Shown here: positions 6,971 to 63,268 of the stretch, piece by piece | Layout of the letters: each line of letters begins with the position of its first letter | Numbering within the stretch: position 1 is the stretch's first letter | Origin: Methylibium rhizosphaerae | GTDB lineage: Bacteria > Pseudomonadota > Gammaproteobacteria > Burkholderiales > Burkholderiaceae_C | Assembly: GCF_006386545.1 (NCBI RefSeq) | Contig: NZ_SWAR01000004.1 | Span: 62,001 to 126,000, forward strand | DNA: 64,000 nucleotides | Direction: 5' to 3' | Translations under genes and position numbers: made by a program | Notes under the pieces: model-generated | Databases searched by the model: none | The model's input: only the letters and a program-made list of their open reading frames with translations | Told to the model about the DNA's origin: nothing

Positions 6971-7726
6971 TCATCGCCGCGCTTCCCTGGCCGACACCAC
7001 CTTGCGGCGCAAGCCCTCCAGGTCGAGCACCCGCAACCCGCCGTATTCGATGCGGATGAGCCCGCCCTGCTGCAGCACATGCAGCGCCTCGTTCACCCGC
7101 TGGCGCGACAGGCCCACCAGGTAGGCCAGCTCCTGCTGGGTGATGCGCAGCATCTGGCCCACGCCCGGATACAGCGTCGGATGGAACAGCGCCGCCAGGC
7201 TGCGGGCCACCCGCGAGTCCGGGTCGTTCATGCGGTCGATCTCGCGCGCCGCGATGAACTGGCCCAGCCGTTCGTTGAGCTGGTTGAGCACGAAGCGGTT
7301 GAACGGGATGCTGGTCTCCAGCAGCCAGTGGAAGGTGTCGATCGGCAGGCCCGCCACCACGCTCTTGCGCAGCGCCAGCACGTTGTAGCGGTAGGCCTCG
7401 CGCTTGAGCAGCGTGCCCTCGCCGAACCAGCCGCCCGGCGGCAGGCCGGCGAAGGTGACGCTGGCGCCGTCGGTGCTGTCGTTGCTCATCTTGAGCAGGC
7501 CGTCGACCACGCCGAACCAGAAGTTGGCCTGCCGGCCGATCTTGCAGACGATCTCGCCGACCTCGGCGTCGGCCACCTGCAGCTCGTTGACGACCCGCTC
7601 GCGGCCCTCGCCTTCGAGCACCGCGAGCCACGGCACCATGGCGAGCTCCGCGTCGGTGGCCGGACGGGCGCGCTGCCGCAGCGGCGGCACGCGAAGGACG
7701 TTGGCGGTGGAGTCGATGACGGGCAT
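6971..7726 (-). CDS. Crp/Fnr-family transcriptional regulator
   Basis: Regulator of 251 residues with an N-terminal cyclic-nucleotide-binding-type beta roll (about 40-150) and a C-terminal winged helix in which QQELAYLVGLSRQRVNEAL is the helix-turn-helix. The PGGWFGEG segment sits where CRP has its phosphate cassette but lacks the R-S residues, so cAMP binding is unlikely. There are no clustered Cys residues for an FNR-type Fe-S cluster. ATG 7726 is chosen over an in-frame TTG at 7762. It is transcribed away from the acyl-CoA ligase/ABC operon, and the 18-bp palindrome between them is the obvious candidate operator, so it probably controls that operon and itself. Confidence 0.9.
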   Translation of the reverse strand: MPVIDSTANVLRVPPLRQRARPATDAELAMVPWLAVLEGEGRERVVNELQVADAEVGEIVCKIGRQANFWFGVVDGLLKMSNDSTDGASVTFAGLPPGGWFGEGTLLKREAYRYNVLALRKSVVAGLPIDTFHWLLETSIPFNRFVLNQLNERLGQFIAAREIDRMNDPDSRVARSLAALFHPTLYPGVGQMLRITQQELAYLVGLSRQRVNEALHVLQQGGLIRIEYGGLRVLDLEGLRRKVVSAREARR

Positions 7727-7807
7727 GCGGTTCGAACGCTCGCGGGCCGAATGACGCTGCAATGACAGTCGCGCCCCGGGAAAGCCCCCCTCGGGGTGTC
7801 CCTAGGA

Positions 7808-7825
7808 TTGTCGGCACAACGACAA
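7808..7825. promoter_or_regulatory. Palindromic operator, likely Crp/Fnr-type
   Basis: TTGTCG (7808-7813) and CGACAA (7820-7825) form a perfect inverted repeat with a 6-base spacer, the half-site geometry of Crp/Fnr dimers (TGT-N-ACA core). It lies between the Crp-like gene (82 bases from its start) and the ligase/ABC operon (89 bases from its start). Assignment to this regulator is inferred from position and symmetry. Confidence 0.6.
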
Positions 7826-7913
7826 CCGGGCGTCAAACATCTCTCTAAGCTGTGGACCAACAACAAGCACAGGCACCGACCTGCTGCCGGCGAAGCACAC
7901 AGCCAAAGGAGAC

Positions 7914-9863
7914 GTGGTGGAAGCGACCTTCCCACGATTGCTGCTGCGGCATGCAGCACAGCGCCCCGACGCGCCCGCACTGCGCGAGAAGGAGTTCGGC
8001 ATCTGGCAGACCTTTACCTGGGGCGCGCTGGCCGAGCTGGTGCGCCACATGGCCTGCGGCCTGGCGGCCGCCGGCCTGCAGCGCGGGCAGCACCTGGTGG
8101 TGGTGGGCGAGAACCGGCCCAGGCTGTATGCCGGCATGCTGGCCGCGCAGTCGCTGGGCGCCATCCCGGTGCCGCTGTACCAGGACGCGGTGGCCGCCGA
8201 GTTCGTGTTCCCGCTCAACAACGCCGAGGTCGCCTACGCGATCGTCGAAGACCAGGAGCAGGTGGACAAGCTGCTCGAGGTGCGTGGCGACTGCCCCGGA
8301 CTCGCGCACATCTGGTTCGATGATCCGCGCGGCCTGCGCAACTACAAGGAGCCCGGGCTGGCGTCGATCGACGCCCTGGTCGACGACGGCCGGCGGCATG
8401 AGGCGCAGCACCCGCAGTTCTACCTGCAGGAAGTGGCCAAGGCCATGCCGGGCGACGTGGCTGCGATGTTCTTCACCTCGGGCACCACCGGCAACCCCAA
8501 GGGCGTGGTGCACACCCATGCCAGCCTGCTCGACCGCGCGCAGGCCGGAACCCGCTTCGACAAGCTGAGCGCCGCCGAGGAGGTGCTGGCCTACCTGCCG
8601 CCCGCCTGGATCGGCCAGAACTGCTTCTCGTATGCGCAGTGGCTGGTGTGCGGCTATGTCGTCAACTGCCCGGAGTCGTCGAGCACGGTGAGCATCGACC
8701 TCAAGGAGATCGGCCCGACCTACTACTTCGCGCCGCCGCGCATCTTCGAGGGCCTGCTCACCAGCGTGATGATCCGCATGGAAGACGCCGGCGCCCCCAA
8801 GCGCTGGCTGTTCAACCGCTTCATGGACGTGGCCCGGCGGGTGGGCCCGGCGCGCATGGACCGCAAGCCGGTGGGCGCGCTCGACAACCTGCTCTACGCG
8901 CTGGGCAACGTGCTCATCTATGGCCCGCTGCGCAACACGCTGGGCCTGTCGCGGGTGCGCGTGGCCTACACCGCCGGCGAAGCGATCGGCCCGGACCTCT
9001 TCACCTTCTACCGCGCCATCGGCATCAACCTGAAGCAGCTGTACGGCTCCACCGAGACCGCGGTGTTCGTCTGCCTGCAGCCCGACCATGAAGTGAAGGC
9101 CGACACGGTGGGCGTGCCGATCGAGGGGGTGGAGATCAGGGTGGACGACAGCGGCGAGGTGCTGATCCGCTCGGGCGGCCTGCTCAAGGAGTACTACAAG
9201 AACCCGCAGGCCACGGCCGACGTCAAGACGGCCGAAGGCTGGTACCGCAGCGGCGATGCCGGCTTCCTCGATGCCTCGGGCCACCTGAAGATCATCGATC
9301 GCGCCAAGGACGTGGGCCGCATCCGCGGCGGCGGCAACGACGGCGCGATGTTCGCGCCCAAGTACGTCGAGAACAAGCTGAAGTTCTTCCCGTACATCAA
9401 GGAGGCGGTGGCCTTCGGCGACCAGCGCGAGAAGGTGTGCGCCTTCATCAACATCGACTTCGAGGCGGTGGGCAACTGGGCCGAGAAGCGCAACCTGCCC
9501 TATGCCGGCTATACCGACCTGGCCGGCAAGCCCGAGGTCTACGAGCTGGTGCGCGACTGCGTGGCCAAGGTCAACGCCGACCTCGCCGCCGACGAACGGC
9601 TCGCGGGCAGCCAGGTGAGCCGCTTCCTGGTGCTGCACAAGGAACTCGATGCCGACGACGGCGAGCTCACCCGCACCCGCAAGGTCCGCCGCGGCTACAT
9701 CGGCGAGAAGTACGCGGTGCTGGTGGACGCGCTGTACGGCGGCAAGGCCTCGCAATACATCGAGACCCAGGTGAAGTTCGAGGACGGCCGCACCGGCATG
9801 GTGTCGGCCGAGCTGCGCATCGCCGATGCGCCCACCCATCCCGCCGTGAGGAGGGCTGCATGA
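7914..9863 (+). CDS. AMP-dependent long-chain-type acyl-CoA synthetase
   Basis: Adenylate-forming ligase of 649 residues that activates a carboxylic acid to its CoA thioester with ATP. The phosphate loop TSGTTGNPKG lies near residue 188-197; YGSTETAVF and the hinge motif WYRSGDAGFLDASGH follow, and RTRKVRRGYI sits at the C-terminal catalytic position. It resembles FadD-like ligases in Burkholderiales encoded with branched-chain-type ABC transporters. Start GTG 7914 (or GTG 7917) follows AAAGGAGA. It opens an operon of eight genes whose stop overlaps the next start as ATGA, which couples activation to uptake of the substrate. The substrate is unknown; an aromatic, branched or long-chain acid is plausible. 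Confidence 0.92.
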   Translation: MVEATFPRLLLRHAAQRPDAPALREKEFGIWQTFTWGALAELVRHMACGLAAAGLQRGQHLVVVGENRPRLYAGMLAAQSLGAIPVPLYQDAVAAEFVFPLNNAEVAYAIVEDQEQVDKLLEVRGDCPGLAHIWFDDPRGLRNYKEPGLASIDALVDDGRRHEAQHPQFYLQEVAKAMPGDVAAMFFTSGTTGNPKGVVHTHASLLDRAQAGTRFDKLSAAEEVLAYLPPAWIGQNCFSYAQWLVCGYVVNCPESSSTVSIDLKEIGPTYYFAPPRIFEGLLTSVMIRMEDAGAPKRWLFNRFMDVARRVGPARMDRKPVGALDNLLYALGNVLIYGPLRNTLGLSRVRVAYTAGEAIGPDLFTFYRAIGINLKQLYGSTETAVFVCLQPDHEVKADTVGVPIEGVEIRVDDSGEVLIRSGGLLKEYYKNPQATADVKTAEGWYRSGDAGFLDASGHLKIIDRAKDVGRIRGGGNDGAMFAPKYVENKLKFFPYIKEAVAFGDQREKVCAFINIDFEAVGNWAEKRNLPYAGYTDLAGKPEVYELVRDCVAKVNADLAADERLAGSQVSRFLVLHKELDADDGELTRTRKVRRGYIGEKYAVLVDALYGGKASQYIETQVKFEDGRTGMVSAELRIADAPTHPAVRRAA

Positions 9864-10732
9864 TGGCCGCCACCACCGCACTGCGCTCCGCCGGGGCCGA
9901 CATGCCGCTGCACGAGGCGGTGGACGCGGCCAACGACTCGCGCCCCAGCGCCGTACGCCGCGCCGGCGACGTGATCCTCGACGTGCAGAACATCTCGCTG
10001 TCGTTCGGCGGGGTCAAGGCGCTCACCGACATCAGCTTCAACGTCCGCGAGCACGAGATCCGCGCCATCATCGGCCCCAACGGCGCCGGCAAGAGCTCCA
10101 TGCTCAACTGCATCAACGGCGTGTACACGCCGCAGCAGGGTTCCATCACCTTCCGCGGCCGGACGTTCAAGCACATGAACTCGCGCCAGGTGGCCGAGAT
10201 GGGCGTGGCCCGCACCTTCCAGAACCTGGCGCTGTTCAAGGGCATGAGCGTGCTCGACAACATCATGACCGGGCGCAACCTGCACATGAAGCGCAACCTG
10301 TTCTGGCAGGCCCTGCGCCTGGGCCCGGCCGAGCGCGAGGAGATCGCGCAGCGCGAGTTCGTCGAACGCATCATCGACTTCCTGGAGATCCAGGCCCACC
10401 GCAAGACGCCGGTGGGCCGGCTGCCCTACGGCCTGCAGAAGCGGGTCGACCTCGGCCGCGCGCTGGCGATGCAGCCGCAGGTGCTGCTGCTCGACGAGCC
10501 GATGGCCGGCATGAACGTCGAGGAAAAGCAGGACATGTGCCGCTTCATCCTCGACGTGAACGACGAGTTCGGCACCACCATCGTGCTGATCGAGCACGAC
10601 ATGGGCGTGGTGATGGACATCTCCGACCGGGTGGTGGTGCTCGACTACGGCAGGAAGATCGGCGACGGCACCCCGGACGAGGTGCGCAGCAATCCGGAGG
10701 TCATCAAGGCCTACCTGGGCACGAGCCACTGA
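9860..10732 (+). CDS. Branched-chain-type ABC transporter ATPase (LivG-like)
   Basis: ATP-hydrolysing subunit of 290 residues for a Liv/HAAT-family importer. Walker A GPNGAGKS, the short signature LPYGLQKRVDLGRAL typical of LivG proteins, Walker B VLLLDEPMAGM and switch His in LIEHDMG are all present. An N-terminal extension of about 35 residues before the ABC core is longer than usual. The start overlaps the ligase stop, and GAGGAGG lies six bases upstream. It pairs with the LivF-like ATPase at 14269. Confidence 0.95.
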   Translation: MMAATTALRSAGADMPLHEAVDAANDSRPSAVRRAGDVILDVQNISLSFGGVKALTDISFNVREHEIRAIIGPNGAGKSSMLNCINGVYTPQQGSITFRGRTFKHMNSRQVAEMGVARTFQNLALFKGMSVLDNIMTGRNLHMKRNLFWQALRLGPAEREEIAQREFVERIIDFLEIQAHRKTPVGRLPYGLQKRVDLGRALAMQPQVLLLDEPMAGMNVEEKQDMCRFILDVNDEFGTTIVLIEHDMGVVMDISDRVVVLDYGRKIGDGTPDEVRSNPEVIKAYLGTSH

Positions 10733-10752
10733 AGGGCGAAGGACGCAACGAA

Positions 10753-11682
10753 ATGGGCTTCTTCCTCGAAACTCTCATCGGCGGCCTGATGGCGGGCATG
10801 CTGTATTCGCTGATCGCGCTCGGCTTCGTGCTGATCTTCAAGGCCAGCGGCGTCTTCAACTTCGCGCAGGGTGCGATGGTGCTGTTCGCCGCACTGGCGA
10901 TGGCGCGCTTCGCCGAGTGGCTGCCCGGCTGGACCGGCATCGAGAGCAGGCTGTTCGCCAACGTGGCCGCCTTCGTGCTCGCGATGGTGGTGATGGTGGT
11001 GGTGGCCTGGCTGATCGAGCGGCTGTGCCTGTCGAAGCTGGTCAACCAGGAGGGCATCACGCTGCTGATGGCCACGCTGGGCATCACCTACTTCCTCGAC
11101 GGCTTCGGCCAGACCCTGTTCGGCTCCAACATCTACAAGATCGACGTCGGCATGCCCAAGGACCCGGTGATCCTGGCCGAGAACGTGTTCCAGGGCGGCA
11201 TCCTCATCAGCAAGGAAGACCTCTACGCCGCGCTGATCGCCGCGGCCCTGGTGCTGGTGCTCACGCTGTTCTTCCAGAAGACCGCCACCGGCCGCGCGCT
11301 GCGTGCGGTGGCCGACGATCACCAGGCGGCGCAGTCCATCGGCATCCCGCTCAACCGCATCTGGGTCATCGTGTGGAGCGTGGCGGGTTTCGTGGCGCTG
11401 GTGGCCGGCATCATCTGGGGCAGCAAGCTGGGCGTGCAGTTCTCGCTGTCGCTGGTGGCACTGAAGGCGCTGCCGGTGGTGATCCTCGGCGGCCTGACCT
11501 CGGTGCCCGGCGCCATCATCGGCGGCCTGATCATCGGCGTGGGCGAGAAGCTCTCCGAGATCTACATCGGCCCCATGCTGGGCGGCGGCATCGAGATCTG
11601 GTTCGCCTACGTGCTGGCATTGCTGTTCCTGCTCGTGAGGCCCCAAGGGCTGTTCGGCGAAAAGATCATCGACCGGGTGTGA
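10753..11682 (+). CDS. Branched-chain-type ABC permease (LivH-like)
   Basis: Inner-membrane permease of 309 residues with about eight hydrophobic helices. The N-terminal SLIALGFVLIFKASGVFNFAQG and the loop GRALRAVADDHQAAQSIGI (the coupling loop that contacts the ATPase) are characteristic of LivH. It starts 20 bases after the LivG-like stop. Together with the next gene it forms the transmembrane heterodimer of the importer. Confidence 0.95.
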   Translation: MGFFLETLIGGLMAGMLYSLIALGFVLIFKASGVFNFAQGAMVLFAALAMARFAEWLPGWTGIESRLFANVAAFVLAMVVMVVVAWLIERLCLSKLVNQEGITLLMATLGITYFLDGFGQTLFGSNIYKIDVGMPKDPVILAENVFQGGILISKEDLYAALIAAALVLVLTLFFQKTATGRALRAVADDHQAAQSIGIPLNRIWVIVWSVAGFVALVAGIIWGSKLGVQFSLSLVALKALPVVILGGLTSVPGAIIGGLIIGVGEKLSEIYIGPMLGGGIEIWFAYVLALLFLLVRPQGLFGEKIIDRV

Positions 11683-11695
11683 GAGGGAGAACAGC

Positions 11696-12772
11696 ATGCT
11701 CTACCGCGAAAACGGCCAGTTCAAGACCAGCTACCGCGCCGACCAGCAGATCTTCCCGATCCTGCAGGACCGCATCGCCATCCTCGGCCTGCTCATCATC
11801 GCCTTCGTCGTGGTGCCGCTGTCGGCGCCCGAGTACGCGTTCCGCGCCATCCTGATCCCGTTCCTGATCCTTTCGCTCGCCGCGCTGGGCCTCAACATCC
11901 TGGTGGGCTACTGCGGGCAGATCTCGCTGGGCACCGGAGCCTTCATGGCGGTGGGCGCCTATGCGGCCTACAACTTCCAGATCCGCATCGAGGGCATGCC
12001 GCTCATCGCCTCGCTGCTGCTGGGCGGCCTGTGCGCCACCGGCGTGGGCGTGCTGTTCGGCATCCCGTCGCTGCGCATCAAGGGGCTGTACCTCGCGGTG
12101 GCCACCCTGGCCGCGCAGTTCTTCGTGGACTGGGCCTTCCTGCGCATCAAGTGGTTCACCAACGACTCGCCGTCGGGCTCGGTCAACGTGTCCAACCTGC
12201 AGGTGGCCGGCATCCCGATCGAAAGCCCGGTGGCCAAGTACCTGTTCTGCCTGGTCTTCGTGGCGGTGTTCGCGCTGCTGGCCAAGAACCTGGTGCGCAG
12301 CGCCATCGGCCGCGAATGGATGGCCATGCGCGACATGGACGTGGCCGCCGCCGTCATCGGCATCCGGCCGGTGTACGCCAAGCTGACCGCATTCGCGGTG
12401 AGCTCCTTCATCGTGGGCGTGGCCGGTGCGCTGTGGGGCTTCGTCTACCTGGGCTCCTGGGAGCCGGCGGCGTTCTCGATCGACCGATCGTTCCAGCTGC
12501 TGTTCATGGTCATCATCGGCGGGCTGGGTTCGATCATGGGCAGCTTCTTCGGCGCCGCCTTCATCGTCATCCTGCCGATCTTCCTGGACCAGGCCCTGCC
12601 CGCGCTCGGCGCGATGGTGGGCCTCAACTTCGACACCGCCACGGTGAGCCATGCGGTGCTCATGATCTTCGGTGCGCTGATCGTGTTCTTCCTGATCGTC
12701 GAGCCGCACGGCCTGGCGCGGCTGTGGTCGATCGGCAAGGAGAAGCTGCGCCTCTGGCCGTTCCCGCATTGA
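11696..12772 (+). CDS. Branched-chain-type ABC permease (LivM-like)
   Basis: Inner-membrane permease of 358 residues. After a 25-residue hydrophilic N-terminus come about nine hydrophobic segments, with LGLNILVGYCGQISLGTGAF and the coupling loop GREWMAMRDMDVAAAVIGI, both typical of LivM. GAGAGGGAGA precedes the ATG. It completes the permease pair and is followed by the binding-protein gene after 63 bases. Confidence 0.95.
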   Translation: MLYRENGQFKTSYRADQQIFPILQDRIAILGLLIIAFVVVPLSAPEYAFRAILIPFLILSLAALGLNILVGYCGQISLGTGAFMAVGAYAAYNFQIRIEGMPLIASLLLGGLCATGVGVLFGIPSLRIKGLYLAVATLAAQFFVDWAFLRIKWFTNDSPSGSVNVSNLQVAGIPIESPVAKYLFCLVFVAVFALLAKNLVRSAIGREWMAMRDMDVAAAVIGIRPVYAKLTAFAVSSFIVGVAGALWGFVYLGSWEPAAFSIDRSFQLLFMVIIGGLGSIMGSFFGAAFIVILPIFLDQALPALGAMVGLNFDTATVSHAVLMIFGALIVFFLIVEPHGLARLWSIGKEKLRLWPFPH

Positions 12773-12835
12773 TTCCGTGTTGATGACCCGCACCGAAGAG
12801 TGCATTCGAAAACCCCCGAAGAAGGAGACAGGCAA

Positions 12836-14173
12836 ATGAAACTCAAGTCACTCGCCCTGGCGGCCGCCACCGTGGCCGCCTTCGCAGGCGGCACGCTCGG
12901 CACGACGGGCGCGCTGGCCCAGGCGAAGGAACAGTTCTTCCCCGTGCTGTCCTACCGCACCGGCCCGTATGCACCCAACGGCGTGCCCTGGGCCAACGGC
13001 TACGTCGACTACCTCAAGCTGGTCAATGCCAAGGGCGGCATCAACGGCGTGAAGATCGTCTTCGAGGAATGCGAGACCGGCTATGACACCGGCAAGAGCG
13101 TCGAATGCTATGAGCGCCTGAAGGGCAAGAACGGCGGCGCCTCGCTGTTCCAGCCGCTGTCCACCGGCGCCACCTTCGCACTCACCGAAAAGGCCCCGGG
13201 CGACAAGATCCCGCTCATCACCGCCGGCTACGGCCGCAGCGAAAGCCAGGACGGCGGCGTGTTCAAGTGGAACTTCCCGCTCATCGGCACCTATTGGGTG
13301 GCCGCGGATGCGCTGGTGCAGCAGATCGGCAAGAAGGAAGGCGGCCTCGGCAAGCTGTCGGGCAAGAAGATCGCGCTGGTCTACCACGACAGCCCCTACG
13401 GCAAAGAGCCGATCCCGCTGCTGCAGGAACGCGCCAAGCTGCACGGCTTCGAGCTGCAGCTGCTGCCGGTCACCGCCCCGGGCGTGGAGCAGAAGTCCAC
13501 CTGGCTCCAGGTGCGCCAGAGCCGGCCTGACTACGTGCTGCTGTGGGGCTGGGGCGTGATGAACTCCACCGCCATCAAGGAGGCCCAGGCCACCGGCTAT
13601 CCGCGCGAGAAGATGTACGGCGTGTGGTGGGCGGGTGCCGAGCCTGACGTGCGCGACGTGGGCGACGGCGCCAAGGGCTACAACGCCGTGACCATGCAGC
13701 ACGGCGCTGAGCCGAACTCCAGGTTCGCGCAGGACGTGCTGGCCCTGCTGCACGGCAAGGGCCAGGGCACCGGCCCCAAGGAAGAGGTCGGCTCGGTGCT
13801 CTACATGCGCGGCGCCATCTCCGCGATGCTGGGTGTGGAGGGCGTGCGGCGCGCGCAGGAGCGTTTCGGCAAGGGCAAGGTCATGACCGGCGAGCAGGTG
13901 CGCTGGGGCCTGGAGAACCTGGCGCTCGACCAGAAGAAGCTCGACGCCCTGGGCTTCGCCGGCGTGATGCGCCCGGTGAGCACCAGTTGCGCCGATCACC
14001 TGGGCGCCAACTGGGCCCGGGTGCACACCTGGGACGGCGCGAAGTGGAACTTCACCTCCGACTGGCTGCAGGCCGACGAGCAGATCATCAAGCCGATGGT
14101 CAAGGCGACGGCCGACAGGTACGCGGCGGAGAAGAAGCTCTCGCGCCGCACACCCGAGGACTGCCAGACATAG
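12836..14173 (+). CDS. Periplasmic ABC substrate-binding protein (Liv/amide type)
   Basis: Binding protein of 445 residues that captures the substrate in the periplasm. A Sec signal peptide covers about residues 1-31 with cleavage near ALAQA. The mature protein has the type I periplasmic fold of the LivJ/AmiC class (YVDYLKLVNAKGGINGVKI, ECETGYDTGKSVECYERL, VEQKSTWLQVRQSRPDYVLLWGW). It is longer than classical LivJ (about 345 residues), as in the subgroup linked to acyl-CoA ligases. GAAGGAGA precedes the ATG. A strong hairpin follows the gene and may raise its mRNA level above that of the downstream genes. Confidence 0.93.
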   Translation: MKLKSLALAAATVAAFAGGTLGTTGALAQAKEQFFPVLSYRTGPYAPNGVPWANGYVDYLKLVNAKGGINGVKIVFEECETGYDTGKSVECYERLKGKNGGASLFQPLSTGATFALTEKAPGDKIPLITAGYGRSESQDGGVFKWNFPLIGTYWVAADALVQQIGKKEGGLGKLSGKKIALVYHDSPYGKEPIPLLQERAKLHGFELQLLPVTAPGVEQKSTWLQVRQSRPDYVLLWGWGVMNSTAIKEAQATGYPREKMYGVWWAGAEPDVRDVGDGAKGYNAVTMQHGAEPNSRFAQDVLALLHGKGQGTGPKEEVGSVLYMRGAISAMLGVEGVRRAQERFGKGKVMTGEQVRWGLENLALDQKKLDALGFAGVMRPVSTSCADHLGANWARVHTWDGAKWNFTSDWLQADEQIIKPMVKATADRYAAEKKLSRRTPEDCQT

Positions 14174-14186
14174 CCCACCCCGCAGC

Positions 14187-14218
14187 GCCGGCGCGCCCCC
14201 TCGAGGGTCCGCGCCGGC
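14187..14218. other. Strong intra-operon hairpin after the binding-protein gene
   Basis: GCCGGCGCG (14187-14195) pairs with CGCGCCGGC (14210-14218), and the loop itself contains the palindrome CCCTCGAGGG. It starts 13 bases after the stop codon and has no T-run. Such hairpins often protect the abundant binding-protein segment of ABC operon mRNAs; that role is inferred here. Confidence 0.6.
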
Positions 14219-14268
14219 AGACCGGCGACGCCGGATCCGCGGCCCGTACTTGAATCCAGCGAGTTTGT

Positions 14269-15075
14269 ATGTCCAACGTTCTGCTCAACGTCAACGGCAT
14301 CGAGGTCATCTACAACCACGTGATCCTCGTGCTCAAGGGCGTGTCGCTGCAGGTGCCCGAGGGCCGCATCGTGGCGCTCCTGGGTGGCAACGGCGCGGGC
14401 AAGACCACCACGCTGCGGGCGGTGAGCAACCTGCTCGCGGGCGAACGCGGCGAGGTCACCAAGGGCAGCATCGAGCTGCGCGGCGAGCGCATCGAGAAGC
14501 TCTCGACCGCGGACATGGTGGACCGCGGCGTCATCCAGGTGATGGAGGGGCGGCACTGCTTCGCCCACCTCACCATCGAGGAGAACCTGATGACCGGCGC
14601 CTACACCCGCCGCGACGGCAAGGCCGCGGTGGCGCAGACGCTGGAGAAGGTCTACACCTACTTCCCGCGGCTGAAGACGCGCCGCGCTTCGCAGGCGGCC
14701 TACACCTCGGGCGGCGAGCAGCAGATGTGCGCCATCGGCCGCGCGCTGATGGCCAACCCGAAGATGGTGCTGCTCGACGAACCGTCGATGGGCCTGGCGC
14801 CGCAGATCGTCGAGGAGGTGTTCGAGATCGTGAAGGACCTGAACACCCGCGAGAAGGTCACCTTCCTGCTGGCCGAGCAGAACACCAGCATCGCGCTGCG
14901 CTATGCCGACTACGGCTACATCCTCGAGAACGGCCGGGTCGTGATGGACGGCGAGGCCAAGGCGCTGCGCGAGAACGAGGACGTGAAGGAGTTCTACCTC
15001 GGCATGGGCGGAGGCGACCGCAAGAGCTTCCGCGACGTGAAGAGCTACAAGCGCAGGAAGCGCTGGCTGGCCTGA
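14269..15075 (+). CDS. Branched-chain-type ABC transporter ATPase (LivF-like)
   Basis: Second ATPase subunit, 268 residues. Walker A GGNGAGKT, signature SGGEQQMCAIGRAL, Walker B MVLLDEPSMGL and the switch segment AEQNTSIAL match LivF. It is about 30 residues longer than typical LivF, with a basic C-terminal tail (KSFRDVKSYKRRKRWLA). Translation start 14269 has only a weak ribosome site, consistent with lower expression than the preceding binding protein. Confidence 0.94.
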   Translation: MSNVLLNVNGIEVIYNHVILVLKGVSLQVPEGRIVALLGGNGAGKTTTLRAVSNLLAGERGEVTKGSIELRGERIEKLSTADMVDRGVIQVMEGRHCFAHLTIEENLMTGAYTRRDGKAAVAQTLEKVYTYFPRLKTRRASQAAYTSGGEQQMCAIGRALMANPKMVLLDEPSMGLAPQIVEEVFEIVKDLNTREKVTFLLAEQNTSIALRYADYGYILENGRVVMDGEAKALRENEDVKEFYLGMGGGDRKSFRDVKSYKRRKRWLA

Positions 15076-15099
15076 ACCCGCGCACCCAGGGAGAACACC

Positions 15100-15390
15100 A
15101 TGGACGACTTCTTCGCCCCACCCCCTTTCAAGCCCGACGAGGCGCTGGTGCAGCTCAAGCGCTCGCTGCGCGACCTGCGCGCGCTGGCCGAGCGCGGCGC
15201 CGGCTTCGAGCTGAAGGGCCAGCCGGTCGTCGAGCTGGCGGTCGACGGCGCGGCGATCCGCGCCCGCATCGCCCGGCGCCCGGCCCGCAGCCCCGAGTGG
15301 GAGGCCCGCGTGCTGAAGAACAGCGCCGACGTGCGGCAGTTCACCGCCGACATGAAGAAGCGCCTCGAGCAATGGAGCGGCGACGAATGA
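15100..15390 (+). CDS. Small hypothetical protein of the ligase/ABC operon (96 aa)
   Basis: An unrecognised 96-residue protein between the LivF-like ATPase and the PaaK-like ligase. It begins MDDFFAPPPFKPDEALVQLK, is rich in Arg/Glu/Ala, probably mostly helical, and has no signal peptide or Cys motif. AGGGAGA precedes the ATG, and its TGA overlaps the ligase ATG (ATGA), so the two proteins are made together and may interact. The tail VRQFTADMKKRLEQWSGDE is amphipathic. Function unknown; an accessory subunit or regulator of the ligase is a guess. Confidence 0.75.
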   Translation: MDDFFAPPPFKPDEALVQLKRSLRDLRALAERGAGFELKGQPVVELAVDGAAIRARIARRPARSPEWEARVLKNSADVRQFTADMKKRLEQWSGDE

Positions 15391-16661
15391 CCACCCCTCA
15401 CGCCCCGTACTACGACGCGCTCGAAACGCGCGACCCGGCCGAGCGCGAGGCCGCGCTCATGGCCGCGCTGCCGGCCCAGGTGGCCCATGCGCAGGCCGGC
15501 ACGGCCGCCTTCGGCGAGATCCTGCAGGGCGTGGATGCGCGCGGCACGAGCTCGCGCGCCGCGCTGGCGAAGCTGCCGGTCACGCGAAAGCATGAGCTGC
15601 TCGAGCGCCAGCAGGCGCAACGCGGCACCGACGTCTTCGGCGGCTTCTCGGCCGTGGGCTGGCGCGGGCTGCAGCGGCCCGGCGGCGCCCGGCGGGTCTA
15701 CCAGTCGCCCGGCCCGGTGTACGAACCCGAGGGCGCCGCCGCGGACTACTGGCGCATGGCGCGTGCGCTCTATGCCGCCGGCTTTCGCGCAGGCGACCTG
15801 GTGCACAACAGCTTCAGCTACCACCTCACGCCGGCCGGCTCGATGATGGAAACCGGCGCGCATGCGATCGGCTGCACCGTGTTCCCCGGCGGCGTGGGCA
15901 ATACCGAGCTGCAGCTGCAGGCGATGACCGAACTCAAGCCGCACGGCTACATCGGCACGCCCAGCTTCCTCAAGATCACCCTCGAAAAGGCCAGCGAGCA
16001 GGGGCTCGCGCTGCCGTCTCTCAAGAAGGCGCTGTGCAGCGGCGAGGCGTTTCCGCCGAGCCTGCGCGAGGTGTTCCGCGAACGCGGCGTCGACGGCTTC
16101 CAGTGCTACGGCACCGCCGACCTGGGCCTCATCGCCTATGAAACCGCCGCCCGCGAAGGGCTGGTGCTCGACGAGCAGGTCATCGTGGAGATCGTGCGCC
16201 CGGGCACCGGCGACCCGGTGCCCGACGGCGAGGTCGGCGAGGTGGTGGTGACCACGCTCAACCCCGACTACCCGCTGATCCGCTTCGGCACCGGCGACCT
16301 GTCGGCCATGCTGGCGGGCACCTGCCCGACCGGCCGCACCGCGCCGCGCATCAAGGGCTGGATGGGACGCGCCGACCAGACCACCAAGGTGCGCGGCATG
16401 TTCGTGCACCCGGGCCAGGTGGATGCGGCCGTCAAGCGGCACCCCGAGGTGCGCCGCGCCCGCCTGGTGGTGAGCGGCGAGATGGCCAACGACCAGATGC
16501 TGCTGCGGGTCGAGGTGGCCGGTGCTCCCGAGGGCCTGGCAGCGCGCCTGGCCGAGAGCCTGCGCGACGTCACCAAGCTGCGCGCCGAGGTGGAGCTGGT
16601 GGCGCCGGGCAGCCTGCCCAACGACGGCAAGGTGATCGAGGACGTGCGGTCGTACCGGTGA
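15387..16661 (+). CDS. PaaK-like AMP-binding enzyme with degenerate P-loop
   Basis: Protein of 424 residues related to phenylacetate-CoA ligase. The middle and C-terminal parts keep recognisable adenylate-forming motifs: PHGYIGTPSFLK, CSGEAFPPSLR, CYGTADLG (usually YGTTE/YGMTE), RFGTGDLS, and KVRGMFVHPGQV. Where the family normally has the Ser/Thr/Gly P-loop (SSGTTGxPT), this protein has YQSPGPVYEPEG (about 105-116), so pyrophosphate contacts must differ or ATP chemistry may be lost. It is the last gene of the ABC/ligase operon and overlaps the preceding small gene. It may be a specialised ligase, a CoA-transfer step, or a binding/regulatory relative. Confidence 0.85.
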   Translation: MTTPHAPYYDALETRDPAEREAALMAALPAQVAHAQAGTAAFGEILQGVDARGTSSRAALAKLPVTRKHELLERQQAQRGTDVFGGFSAVGWRGLQRPGGARRVYQSPGPVYEPEGAAADYWRMARALYAAGFRAGDLVHNSFSYHLTPAGSMMETGAHAIGCTVFPGGVGNTELQLQAMTELKPHGYIGTPSFLKITLEKASEQGLALPSLKKALCSGEAFPPSLREVFRERGVDGFQCYGTADLGLIAYETAAREGLVLDEQVIVEIVRPGTGDPVPDGEVGEVVVTTLNPDYPLIRFGTGDLSAMLAGTCPTGRTAPRIKGWMGRADQTTKVRGMFVHPGQVDAAVKRHPEVRRARLVVSGEMANDQMLLRVEVAGAPEGLAARLAESLRDVTKLRAEVELVAPGSLPNDGKVIEDVRSYR

Positions 16662-22539: not shown

Positions 22540-22677
22540 GGATGTCGGCACAAACCCCAGCGGCTGGTTACGTAGTTCCCGCGATGGCTTTGCGGGGGCG
22601 CACGCCTAGCATTCGGGCTTCCGGGGCCATGCTGTGAAGGGATGGGGCCCCAAATCCGTGACAACAGGAGATCCGAC

Positions 22678-23652
22678 ATGAAACGCCTGATGCTGGCCGC
22701 AGTGGCCGCCCTTGCCGTGACGGGCGCCATGGCGCAGAACTATCCCGGTGACAAGCCGGTGACCATCGTCGTGCCGTTCACCGCCGGCGGCCCCACCGAC
22801 AAGGTGGCCCGCGACCTGGCCGAAGCCCTGCGCAAGCCGCTGGGTGCCACCATCGTGATCGAGAACGTCGGCGGCGCCGGCGGCACGCTGGGCGCCACCA
22901 AGGTGGCCAAGGCCGCGCCGGACGGCTACACGCTGCTGCTGCATCACATCGGCATGGCGACCTCGCCGTCGCTGTATCGCACGCTGCAGTACAAGACGCT
23001 CGAAGACTTCGAGTACCTCGGCCTCATCAACGAAGTGCCGATGACGCTGATCGGCCGCCCCACGCTGCCGGCCAACAACTACGCCGAGCTGCTGAAGTGG
23101 ATCGACGCCAACAAGGGCAAGATCAACCTGGCCAACGCCGGCCTGGGCGCTGCCTCGCACCTGTGCGGCCTGCTGTATCAGAGCACGCTGAAGGTCGACA
23201 TGACCACCGTGCCGTACAAGGGCACCGCACCGGCGATGACCGACCTCATCGGCGGCCAGGTCGACATCATGTGCGACCAGACCACCAACACCACGTCGCA
23301 GATCGAAGCCGGCAAGGTGAAGGCCTTCGCGGTGACCACGCCCAAGCGGCTGACCACGCCTGCGCTGTCGAAGCTGCCCACGCTGGACGAGTCCGGGATG
23401 AAGGGCTTCAACGTCAGCATCTGGCACGGCCTGTATGCACCGAAGGGCACGCCCAAGGCCGTGCTCGACAAGGTGAACGCCGCGCTGAAGGTCGCGCTGA
23501 AAGATGCCGACTTCCTGAAGCGTGAAGAGGCGCTGGGCGCGGTGGTCGTGACCGATGCGCGTACCAATCCGGCCGACCACAAGAAGTGGGTCGATGCCGA
23601 GATCAACAAGTGGTCGCCGGTGATCAAGGCCGCCGGCCAGTACGCCGACTGA
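22678..23652 (+). CDS. Bug-family tripartite tricarboxylate transporter binding protein
   Basis: Periplasmic binding protein of 324 residues (BugT/TctC family). A Sec signal peptide covers residues 1-19 (cleavage near GAMAQ). The mature protein shows the family signatures YPGDKPVTIVVPFTAGGPTD, NVGGAGGTLG and APDGYTLLLHH, VPYKGTAPAMTDLIGGQVDIM and the IWHGLYAPKGTPKAVLDKVNAAL segment. ACAGGAGA precedes the ATG. No TctA/TctB membrane subunits are adjacent; orphan Bug proteins are abundant in Burkholderiales and may use distant membrane partners. Its position after the hydroxylase operon suggests a related organic acid ligand, by inference only. Confidence 0.94.
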   Translation: MKRLMLAAVAALAVTGAMAQNYPGDKPVTIVVPFTAGGPTDKVARDLAEALRKPLGATIVIENVGGAGGTLGATKVAKAAPDGYTLLLHHIGMATSPSLYRTLQYKTLEDFEYLGLINEVPMTLIGRPTLPANNYAELLKWIDANKGKINLANAGLGAASHLCGLLYQSTLKVDMTTVPYKGTAPAMTDLIGGQVDIMCDQTTNTTSQIEAGKVKAFAVTTPKRLTTPALSKLPTLDESGMKGFNVSIWHGLYAPKGTPKAVLDKVNAALKVALKDADFLKREEALGAVVVTDARTNPADHKKWVDAEINKWSPVIKAAGQYAD

Positions 23653-61523: not shown

Positions 61524-63268
61524 CGGCTCTTCTCCAGCAGGAAGCTGCCGATCACGAGCGCATCGAGCGGCGTGCTCCAGAACGCGTTGAGCGCGTCGCG
61601 CGGCGAGTTGACGATGGGTTCGCCGCGCACGTTGAACGAGGTGTTCACCAGCACCGGCACACCGGTGGCGCGGCCGAAGGCCTTGAGCAGGTCGTAGTAG
61701 CGCGGGTTGGTGTCGCGCCGCACCGTCTGCACGCGTGCGGTGCGGTCGGCATGGCACACCGCCGGGATGCGCTGCGCCTTGTCGGGCGGCACGTCGTAGA
61801 TGAAGAGCATGAAGGGTGCGCTGCCGCCGTTGGCCTGCGCCGGGCTGAACCATTCGGCGAGGTCGTCCTCAGGCACCACCGGCGCTACCGGTCGGAAATC
61901 CTCGCGGTCCTTGAGCTCGTTGAGCCGCGCCTGCATGTCGGGCGACAGCGGCGAGGCCAGGATGGAGCGCGCACCCAGGGCCCGCGGGCCGAACTCCATG
62001 CGGCCCTGGAACCAGCCGATGATGCGGTCCTGCGTGAGCAGCTTCGCGGTTTCTTCGGCCACGTCGTCGAGCCGGCGGTACGGCAGCTTCGACCACTTGA
62101 GCAGCGCCTCGATCTCGTCGTCGCCGTAGCCCGGCCCCCAGTAGGCATGCTGCATGTTCCAGTGCCGCAGGCGGCCGGTCTCGGCACGCTGGTGCTGCAT
62201 GTCGATCCACAGCGCGGCGCCCAGCGCCGTGCCGGCATCGCCGGCGGCCGGCTGGACCCACACCTGCTCGAAGATGCCGGCATCGCGCAGCCTGGAGTTC
62301 ATCACGCAGTTGAGGGCCACGCCGCCGGCCATTGCGAGGTGGCGTTCTCCGCTCACCTCGCGCAGCCAGCCGGCCAGCTGCAGCACCGTTTCCTCGAGCA
62401 CCGCCTGCAGCGAGGCCGCGAGGTCGAAATGCGCCTGGGTGAGCGCTGCGCCCTTATGGCGCGCCGGCCCGAACAGCTCCACCGGGTCGAACGCTTCGAT
62501 CTCGTAGCGGCCGGCATGGCTCACCTTCACCAGGCGGCGGAACTTCTCCAGGTACGAAGGACGCCCCAGCGCAGCCAGCGCCATCACCTTGTATTCGTCG
62601 CTCGAATGCAGGAAGCCCAGGTGGCTGGTGATGCGCTCGTACAGCAGCCCCAGCGACGTGGGCATCAGCACTTCACCAAGGGGGTGGTAATGGCCGTCGC
62701 GCCAGCGTCCGTAGGTGGTGGTGGCGTCCTCGCCGCGGCCGTCGAGCGTCATCACCGCGCAATGCTCGAAGGGCGCGGCCAGGAAGGCGCTGGCCTGGTG
62801 GCAGATGTGGTGCTCGACGAAGCTCCAGCGATACGGCCCCGGAAACGACACCCCGGCGAAGCGAGCCTTCAGGTGGTGCGGCGCGCCGCCGGCCAGCTGC
62901 CTCGGTGCATTGACGATGTAGCTGGCGAACAGCGGGTCCCATGGGTTTTCCCAGCCGCCTTCGGCGCGCCGCGCGGCAGAAGGCTCCAGCGGCAGCTCGA
63001 TGGTGGAGCCCACGCTGCGGTCGCGCAGGAAGCGCCACGGGTCGTAGCTGTAGGCCACGTTGTCCACCTCGCCCAGCAGGATGCCGGCCTCGCGCAGGCA
63101 GTAGTCGATGGCATGGAAGGGCAGCTCCCAGGCGGTGAACGGCAGCGGCCGCTTGGCGTGCTTGATGCCGGTGAAGCGTTCTTCCTCGGCCGCTGCAATG
63201 AGTTGCCCGTCCTTCACCAGCGCGGCCGCGCTGTCGTGGAAAGCGGCATTGATGCCCAGCGTGATCAT
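61517..63268 (-). CDS. NodU/CmcH-family carbamoyltransferase
   Basis: Enzyme of 583 residues that transfers the carbamoyl group of carbamoyl phosphate to a sugar or other hydroxyl, with ATP. The N-terminal Kae1-like domain begins LGINAAFHDSAAALVKDGQLIAAAEEERF and has the metal-binding HHICHQASAF segment and TLDGRGED. The C-terminal YrdC-like domain has GRMEFGPRALGARSILASP and TSFNVRGEPIVNSP. It decorates the glycan made by the surrounding transferases. It overlaps both neighbours (ATGA with the GT9 gene before it). Confidence 0.95.
   Translation of the reverse strand: MITLGINAAFHDSAAALVKDGQLIAAAEEERFTGIKHAKRPLPFTAWELPFHAIDYCLREAGILLGEVDNVAYSYDPWRFLRDRSVGSTIELPLEPSAARRAEGGWENPWDPLFASYIVNAPRQLAGGAPHHLKARFAGVSFPGPYRWSFVEHHICHQASAFLAAPFEHCAVMTLDGRGEDATTTYGRWRDGHYHPLGEVLMPTSLGLLYERITSHLGFLHSSDEYKVMALAALGRPSYLEKFRRLVKVSHAGRYEIEAFDPVELFGPARHKGAALTQAHFDLAASLQAVLEETVLQLAGWLREVSGERHLAMAGGVALNCVMNSRLRDAGIFEQVWVQPAAGDAGTALGAALWIDMQHQRAETGRLRHWNMQHAYWGPGYGDDEIEALLKWSKLPYRRLDDVAEETAKLLTQDRIIGWFQGRMEFGPRALGARSILASPLSPDMQARLNELKDREDFRPVAPVVPEDDLAEWFSPAQANGGSAPFMLFIYDVPPDKAQRIPAVCHADRTARVQTVRRDTNPRYYDLLKAFGRATGVPVLVNTSFNVRGEPIVNSPRDALNAFWSTPLDALVIGSFLLEKSRC

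Follow-up and report, generated by a model that had tools for sequence, protein, structure and literature searches.

A PaaK-fold protein family with an exchanged P-loop, encoded beside a LIV-type importer and an acyl-CoA synthetase

A protein of the PaaK fold encoded by Methylibium rhizosphaerae belongs to a family in which, judging from alignments, the P-loop for the β- and γ-phosphates of ATP is replaced in every member collected, while the main family retains the residues expected to serve the adenosine part of the nucleotide and the hinge. The gene for this protein travels with a canonical acyl-CoA synthetase and a transporter. We give a rough probability of 45% to the reading that this PaaK-like protein is a non-adenylating ANL accessory, which would bind the adenylate or the CoA product of the partner synthetase and would link import to activation. 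The window, that is, the whole stretch of DNA analysed, comprises 64,000 nucleotides (positions 62,001 to 126,000 of contig NZ_SWAR01000004.1), and its relevant features are collected in table 1. The fold and the parts of the operon are of known kinds; what is new is a PaaK branch with a uniformly exchanged P-loop that is tied to an importer. A literature search, with subscription papers mostly outside its reach, found no published description of a P-loop-less PaaK or of the operon. Should the protein indeed prove to be an ATP-free partner, it would reveal the means by which an acyl-CoA synthetase is coupled to an importer.

Table 1. Features of the window, with positions counted from its first nucleotide
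Feature	Position	Strand	Basis
Crp/Fnr regulator, divergent, adjoining the operon	6971..7762	-	PF00027 and PF13545 above cut-off
FAA1/FadD11-type AMP-binding acyl-CoA synthetase, P-loop TSGTTGNPKG complete, 649 residues	7914..9863	+	PF00501, 216.8 bits
livG-type ABC ATPase, start overlapping the synthetase stop	9860..10732	+	translation, chosen start; homologues in 51/51 loci
livH-type permease	10753..11682	+	translation, chosen start; synteny
livM-type permease	11696..12772	+	PF02653, 109.3 bits
Periplasmic substrate-binding protein (SBP)	12836..14173	+	PF13458, 178.3 bits (scanned from 12800)
livF-type ABC ATPase	14269..15075	+	PF00005, 91.2 bits
96-residue protein, helix-5 strands-helix model, lineage-restricted neighbour	15100..15390	+	translation, predicted model; no Pfam family above cut-off
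PaaK-fold protein without ATP P-loop (SPGP family), 424 residues	15387..16661	+	translation, Pfam, NCBIfam, homologues, fold comparison
SPGPVYEPE loop, residues 107-115, in place of SSGTTGKPT	15705..15731	+	homologue alignment
A5-like motif YGTADLG, residues 241-247; Asp where PaaK has Glu	16107..16127	+	alignment
A7-like motif FGTGDLS, residues 300-306; ribose Asp304 retained	16284..16304	+	alignment
A8-like motif GRADQTTK, residues 327-334	16365..16388	+	alignment
A10-like NDGK, residues 412-415	16620..16631	+	alignment

A run of genes on the forward strand (7914-16661) encodes the synthetase, the livG, livH and livM types, the SBP, the livF type, the 96-residue protein and finally the PaaK-like protein. 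The importer set is complete for the LIV/HAAT type, with livM, the SBP (Peripla_BP_6) and livF recognized by Pfam, and livG and livH by translation and synteny. The stop of the small ORF (15100-15390) and the start of the PaaK-like gene (15387) overlap in the sequence ATGA. The loop region of the PaaK-like protein (residues 105-116) reads YQSPGPVYEPEG, and the P-loop region of the canonical synthetase (7914-9863) reads FFTSGTTGNPKGVV. The original prediction had described a PaaK-like protein that lacks the SSGTTGxP loop and retains the motifs YGTAD and GTGDLS, and this description stands: both motifs are present (residues 241-247 and 300-306), and a loop of the type SPG-x-Φ-Y-E-P takes the place of the P-loop in this sequence and in 139/139 homologues. 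The 6.17 Mb source genome holds one second PaaK-like match, a weak one (32% over 120 residues).

The homologues comprise 30 close loci, the window's own included, 20 distant loci, 80 named loci, 20 second-best PaaK matches and 8 annotated plasmid loci, which gave 158 sequences and, after one identical row had been dropped, 157 distinct ones. The named loci were found via the peptides GW[ML]GRADQ and [IV]RF[GA]TGDLS and the others by overall similarity, the SPG loop playing no part in the selection. Among these 157 sequences, only two loop states occur, SPG-type in 139 and SSGTTG in 18, and a third state is absent. The second-best matches had been fetched as presumed ordinary PaaKs; 18 of the 20 are ordinary, all from genomes of the window's own order and all with SSGTTG, and the other two (L136 and L150) carry the SPG loop. 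Together with L181 and L184 they were set apart as divergent after inspection of their motifs, so that the 139 loop-bearing rows consist of a main family of 135 and these four. A tree of 98 rows, built by a quick method with the loop columns excluded and with ordinary PaaK as the only outgroup, contains one branch that separates 80 loop-bearing rows from 18 ordinary ones; the program flagged four long rows as being of unsure placement (C_L136, C_L150, X_L178 and X_L183).

The exchanged loop was compared with SSGTTGKP position by position. Positions 1 (Ser) and 3 (Gly) are unchanged in 139/139 sequences, whereas Ser at position 2 has become Pro, Thr at position 5 an aliphatic residue and the Lys or Arg of position 7 a Glu or Asp, again in 139/139, the last being a strict swap of a basic for an acidic residue. 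Position 4 is Pro in 101/135 main-family rows and still Thr in 33/135; the Pro of position 8 is retained in 133/139 (129/135 in the main family). The resulting pattern is SPG-x-aliphatic-aromatic-acidic, in which the aromatic residue is Tyr or Phe except for two His, one Cys and one Ala among the 139, and the segment that follows is about five residues shorter than in ordinary PaaK. Local degeneration of the loop in the window protein was considered and discarded, since the SPG loop is conserved family-wide; likewise, a hidden P-loop elsewhere in the protein was ruled out by a motif search, which found no SSGTTG-type motif anywhere in the 139 loop-bearing sequences.

The exchange extends beyond the loop. 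Compared with the 18 ordinary PaaKs, 23 columns without variation in that group are fixed otherwise in 97% or more of the 135 rows of the main family, seven of them as a gap; examples are a Gly that has become His146 in 135/135 and a Glu that has become Asp245 in 131/135; in 38 columns, ordinary PaaKs and the main family have the same residue in common. Asp304 (A7) and Arg328 (A8) are retained in 139/139 sequences and Asp330 in all 135 main-family rows. The A10 position is Lys in 118 of these rows, the window protein included, Arg in 11 and neither in six. In five of the six (L156, L161, L162, L163 and L168), residue 412 is Lys or Arg instead, and L087 has neither residue at the A10 position or three residues earlier.

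According to the parts of PMC8388817 available, Ser94, Thr96 and Thr97 of PaaK1 contact the ATP phosphates together with loop amides, and the ribose is contacted by the A7 and A8 positions, which are Asp304 and Arg328 here. The three PaaK1 residues would correspond to loop positions 2, 4 and 5. In another ligase, again from the available parts of PMC8388817, P-loop substitutions cost between 4-fold and all of the activity, and a table in the same paper puts the cost of substituting the loop Lys at only 4-fold. As far as these parts go, the exchange of Lys for an acidic residue need not by itself stop catalysis, because backbone amides can bind phosphate without help from side chains and the loop Lys is worth only that factor.

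Profiles place the protein within the AMP-binding family and outside the recognized PaaKs. PF00501 (AMP-binding) is matched at 47.6 bits against a cut-off of 29.9, over no more than positions 221-375 of the 384 in the profile, and by 21/21 members of set A1 at E ≤ 0.001; the C-terminal domain AMP-binding_C_2 lies above the Pfam cut-off. Both NCBIfam PaaK equivalogs are missed by a wide interval (TIGR02155, 129 vs 646.3 bits; NF041878, 140.2 vs 700 bits). An AlphaFold model predicted from 52 sequences has a pLDDT of 83.4 and a pTM of 0.78, with loop residues 104-118 below 50. A monomer model of this kind cannot settle the role of the loop, because the P-loop of PaaK is completed by dimerisation, as stated in the available parts of PMC8388817.

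Foldseek matches the model to 2y27_A (E 3.1e-36, TM 0.68), with an rmsd of 12.2 over both domains; the best matches, with a TM by query length of 0.66-0.69, are BT_0428, HCL, PaaK1 in complex with ATP and the adenylate complex of PaaK2. The likeness to PaaK1 and PaaK2 of Burkholderia cenocepacia (2y27, 2y4n and 2y4o) covers the whole length of the fold (27-29% identity, TM 0.65-0.68) and includes the A7 and A8 core residues. The PaaK-like protein differs from this pair in having SPGxΦYEP instead of SSGTTGKP, with some five following residues missing, in having Asp for the A5 Glu and the fixed His146 for a Gly, and in standing outside the NCBIfam equivalogs. The top PDB sequence match, the putative acyl-CoA ligase BT_0428 (4r1l), differs from it at the loop, SSSGTTGNP. 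The 2-hydroxyisobutyryl-CoA ligase HCL of Aquincola (6hdw), a member of the PaaK family with adenylate and CoA states according to PDB titles, aligns over nearly the whole length, but has the loop TSGTTGRP and a chain longer by 75 residues. AjiA1 and NatL2 (6wuq and 6siw) also match in fold, AjiA1 being a weak sequence match (E 4.3e-5) and NatL2 having been solved, by PDB titles, with an ATP analogue and with AMP; in the available parts of PMC8388817, they are atypical PaaK-family members without domain alternation. Unlike the protein studied here, they are biosynthetic and have no transporter link.

These comparisons bear on whether the protein could be a normal ATP-dependent CoA ligase, in which the rebuilt loop would bind phosphates in another way and the two ligases of the operon would differ in substrates or working concentrations. 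Such an enzyme fits with a nucleotide site whose other motifs are all recognizable, with the A10 Lys of 118/135 members, with the fold shared with the ATP complex of PaaK1 and with the annotation of plasmid members as AMP-binding protein or phenylacetate-CoA ligase. It fits poorly with the exchanges seen in 139/139 sequences (an acidic residue for the Lys, Pro at position 2, an aliphatic residue at position 5), with the replacement of the A10 Lys in 17/135, and with the five PDB relatives found by the family profile at E ≤ 1e-10, all of which have a GTTG loop (SSGTTGNP, SSGTTGKP in two, TSGTTGRP and SFGTTGEP). On balance, we consider a normal ligase unlikely.

The original prediction placed the PaaK-like gene in an uptake operon with a complete canonical synthetase, and this proves to be a property of the family: the order synthetase-livG-livH-livM-SBP-livF-PaaK-like is found in 51/51 Burkholderiales loci, among the 80 named ones, that reach far enough upstream. 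In 74/74 loci with at least 1 kb of upstream sequence, livF lies immediately 5′ of the PaaK-like gene, at a gap of 0-700 bp in 73 and with an overlap of 13 bp in L094. Across 399 genomes of the order (thresholds of E ≤ 1e-80 for the PaaK-like protein and E ≤ 1e-100 for the synthetase, kinship not corrected), both genes occur in 124, the PaaK-like gene only in four, the synthetase only in six and neither in 265. The synthetase was recovered with its N-terminus at 77/108 loci and keeps (T/S)SGTT in 77/77, in the strict form (T/S)SGTTGxPK in 66, as TSGTTS.PK in nine and as TSGTTGRSK in two; the ATP-using partner therefore retains what the PaaK-like protein has lost.

In 16 of 20 distant genomes, all six operon genes lie upstream on the same strand, and in six of these livG precedes the synthetase; the operon genes are on the other strand in one genome, and none lies within about 10 kb in three. 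The order livG-synthetase-livH-livM-SBP-livF-PaaK-like is that of L156, L157, L160, L164, L170 and L173, whose synthetase motif is TSGTTS.PK rather than TSGTTG.PK. A Crp/Fnr homologue is found upstream of the synthetase on the opposite strand in 48/80 named loci, and a TctC-type binding protein downstream of the PaaK-like gene in 64/80, often as the next gene, with two of the 64 at only 37% identity and several not adjacent. In the window, a PAS-GGDEF gene and one for a molybdopterin oxidoreductase lie between the PaaK-like gene and the TctC-type protein (22642-23652, forward strand), and a 5′-nucleotidase lies upstream, as it does in 5/80 named loci, most of the 80 ending before that point.

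Since the loop exchange and the shared operon with a complete synthetase are both family-wide, it is reasonable to infer that two ligase-like proteins divide the labour between them, as the original prediction had proposed. Under the reading as a non-adenylating accessory, the PaaK-like gene would be the last component of a module made of a LIV-type importer and an acyl-CoA synthetase and would represent the PaaK branch of the ANL fold. Its product would be unable to form an adenylate from ATP, would bind, on the cytosolic side, the partner synthetase's acyl-adenylate or its acyl-CoA and AMP, and would finish or channel the thioester step or report the product level, by which uptake and activation could keep pace. 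Several points speak against this reading: most members keep the A10 Lys, which an ATP-free protein does not obviously need; the exchange of the loop Lys need not by itself stop catalysis; four members have lost the A8 Asp; and, among the distant genomes, three have no operon genes within about 10 kb and one has them on the other strand.

A more specific version of this division would be a split ANL system, in which the synthetase makes the acyl-adenylate with ATP and the PaaK-like protein, itself unable to use ATP, would receive the adenylate and form the CoA thioester at the importer, its acidic SPGPxYEP loop taking the place of pyrophosphate. We think it quite improbable; if true, a single enzyme class would have its two half reactions shared out between two proteins. 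Alternatively, the PaaK-like protein might be purely a pseudoenzyme that binds no adenylate in catalysis and serves the importer or the synthetase as a structural or regulatory subunit, as could be argued from its close association with livF and from L136, L181 and L184, which keep the loop without the A8 Asp and the A10 Lys. Hinge and adenosine-site residues are nevertheless near 100% conserved in the main family, beyond what a mere scaffold needs, and a pseudoenzyme seems doubtful to us. The SPG-loop family may not share one function, because four of its members have lost the A8 Asp (L136, L150, L181 and L184), the first and the last two also the A10 Lys. The divergent genes with both losses lie at 501-1724 (L136), 13911-15107 (L181) and 7703-8899 (L184), and those of L181 and L184 close a run of beta-oxidation genes.

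The 96-residue protein was the other half of the original prediction, which coupled it to the PaaK-like protein, and here the comparison of genomes gave no support: it showed the lack of co-occurrence that the original prediction had itself named as refuting. The ORF has GGGAGA upstream of it, and its product is predicted to adopt a small alpha+beta fold (pLDDT 85); it matches no Pfam family above cut-off, and fold comparison gave nothing convincing (best E 0.25). The source genome has no second good copy (best E 0.018). Two of the 30 close loci carry the small protein, the window's own and one other, and a homologue stands beside the PaaK-like gene in 11/80 named loci; of the other 69, L065 and L123 are uninformative because they start at the end of a contig. 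In L054, likewise one of the 69 and from a Rhodoferax MAG, a 91-residue ORF (9648-9923) in the gap between livF and the PaaK-like gene is a divergent homologue (hhalign probability 91), and an ORF of L226 (600-872) resembles it.

With a profile of 12 members (A3), a single copy of the small gene was found in each of 58 out of 200 genomes from the window's own family. Both genes occur together in 48 of these genomes, the small gene only in 10, the PaaK-like gene only in 120 and neither in 22, so that 48 co-occurrences are observed against 48.7 expected (Fisher p 0.83, kinship not corrected). The small gene adjoins the PaaK-like gene in 47 of the 58, as determined from 29 of 30 fetched loci, from coordinates in 15 and from the neighbourhood in three, one of which is a weak homologue (G863). 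The 11 cases elsewhere are 10 genomes without a PaaK-like gene at E ≤ 1e-80, and G821, whose PaaK-like gene is on another contig.

If the 96-residue protein were a dedicated partner, providing the absent ATP-binding function or standing in for it, the stop-start overlap in the window and adjacency in 47/58 small-gene genomes would fit. At odds with such a role are the chance-level co-occurrence, the presence of the small gene at just 11 of 80 loci with the same loop, and the 10 genomes in which it is intact without a PaaK-like gene; co-occurrence and survival together rule such a partner out for practical purposes, and we hold it to be very improbable. The SPGP loop and the small protein are thus not always found together, and the 96-residue protein is real, but an independent neighbour and not a required partner; adjacency is frequent because the neighbourhood is shared. 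In L217 and L225, which have no PaaK-like gene, and also in G821 (L223), the small gene lies between a 5′-nucleotidase and a TctC-type protein, which are the flanks of the operon in the window. Among the other genomes without a PaaK-like gene, it lies beside TctC only in L218, L219 and L220 and beside the nucleotidase only in L222, and neither was found beside it in L215, L216, L221 and L224. We read the small-only genomes as having lost the operon while the small gene stayed intact, with a missed operon possible in G843 (L221), which is 86% complete, and in G827, which has 6% contamination. At the same loci, pN/pS (medians of pairs, uncorrected and saturated) is 0.73 in the small gene as against 0.45 in the PaaK-like gene, a weak sign that the small gene evolves faster.

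The PaaK-like family is present in 168/200 genomes of the window's own family, in 128/399 of the order and, in a sample of the phylum, in 67/398; the 67 include 12 from the window's own family. Annotated plasmid-borne members carry database names that imply an ATP chemistry against which the sequence argues. The available parts of PMC5876002 list, among mutants of Castellaniella in monoterpene growth, one whose insertion lies 10 bp before a phenylacetate-CoA ligase gene, which may or may not belong to the SPG-loop family.

In the window, the operon has no catabolic cluster next to it, and its neighbours in Paracoccus and Aminobacter differ from those in the lineages that follow. Nine of 30 plasmid matches were inspected (six annotated main-family members, two of the divergent branch and one unannotated), which is not a count of associations. 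Near the plasmid-borne operon of Methylibium PM1, on what we take to be the MTBE plasmid, lie a Rieske oxygenase and a reductase, and in Azospirillum genes of the isovaleryl-CoA and methylcrotonyl-CoA types lie beside it. In Xanthobacter Py2 and Roseovarius THAF8, the operon is adjoined by a B12-dependent acyl-CoA mutase and a MeaB-type ATPase, and the mutase subunits and the ATPase stand directly beside it in L178 (10256-15104) and L180 (2745-5795). These neighbours point to short branched acids as substrates in the four lineages, a weak lead; the closest solved relative of the mutase is 2-hydroxyisobutyryl-CoA mutase.
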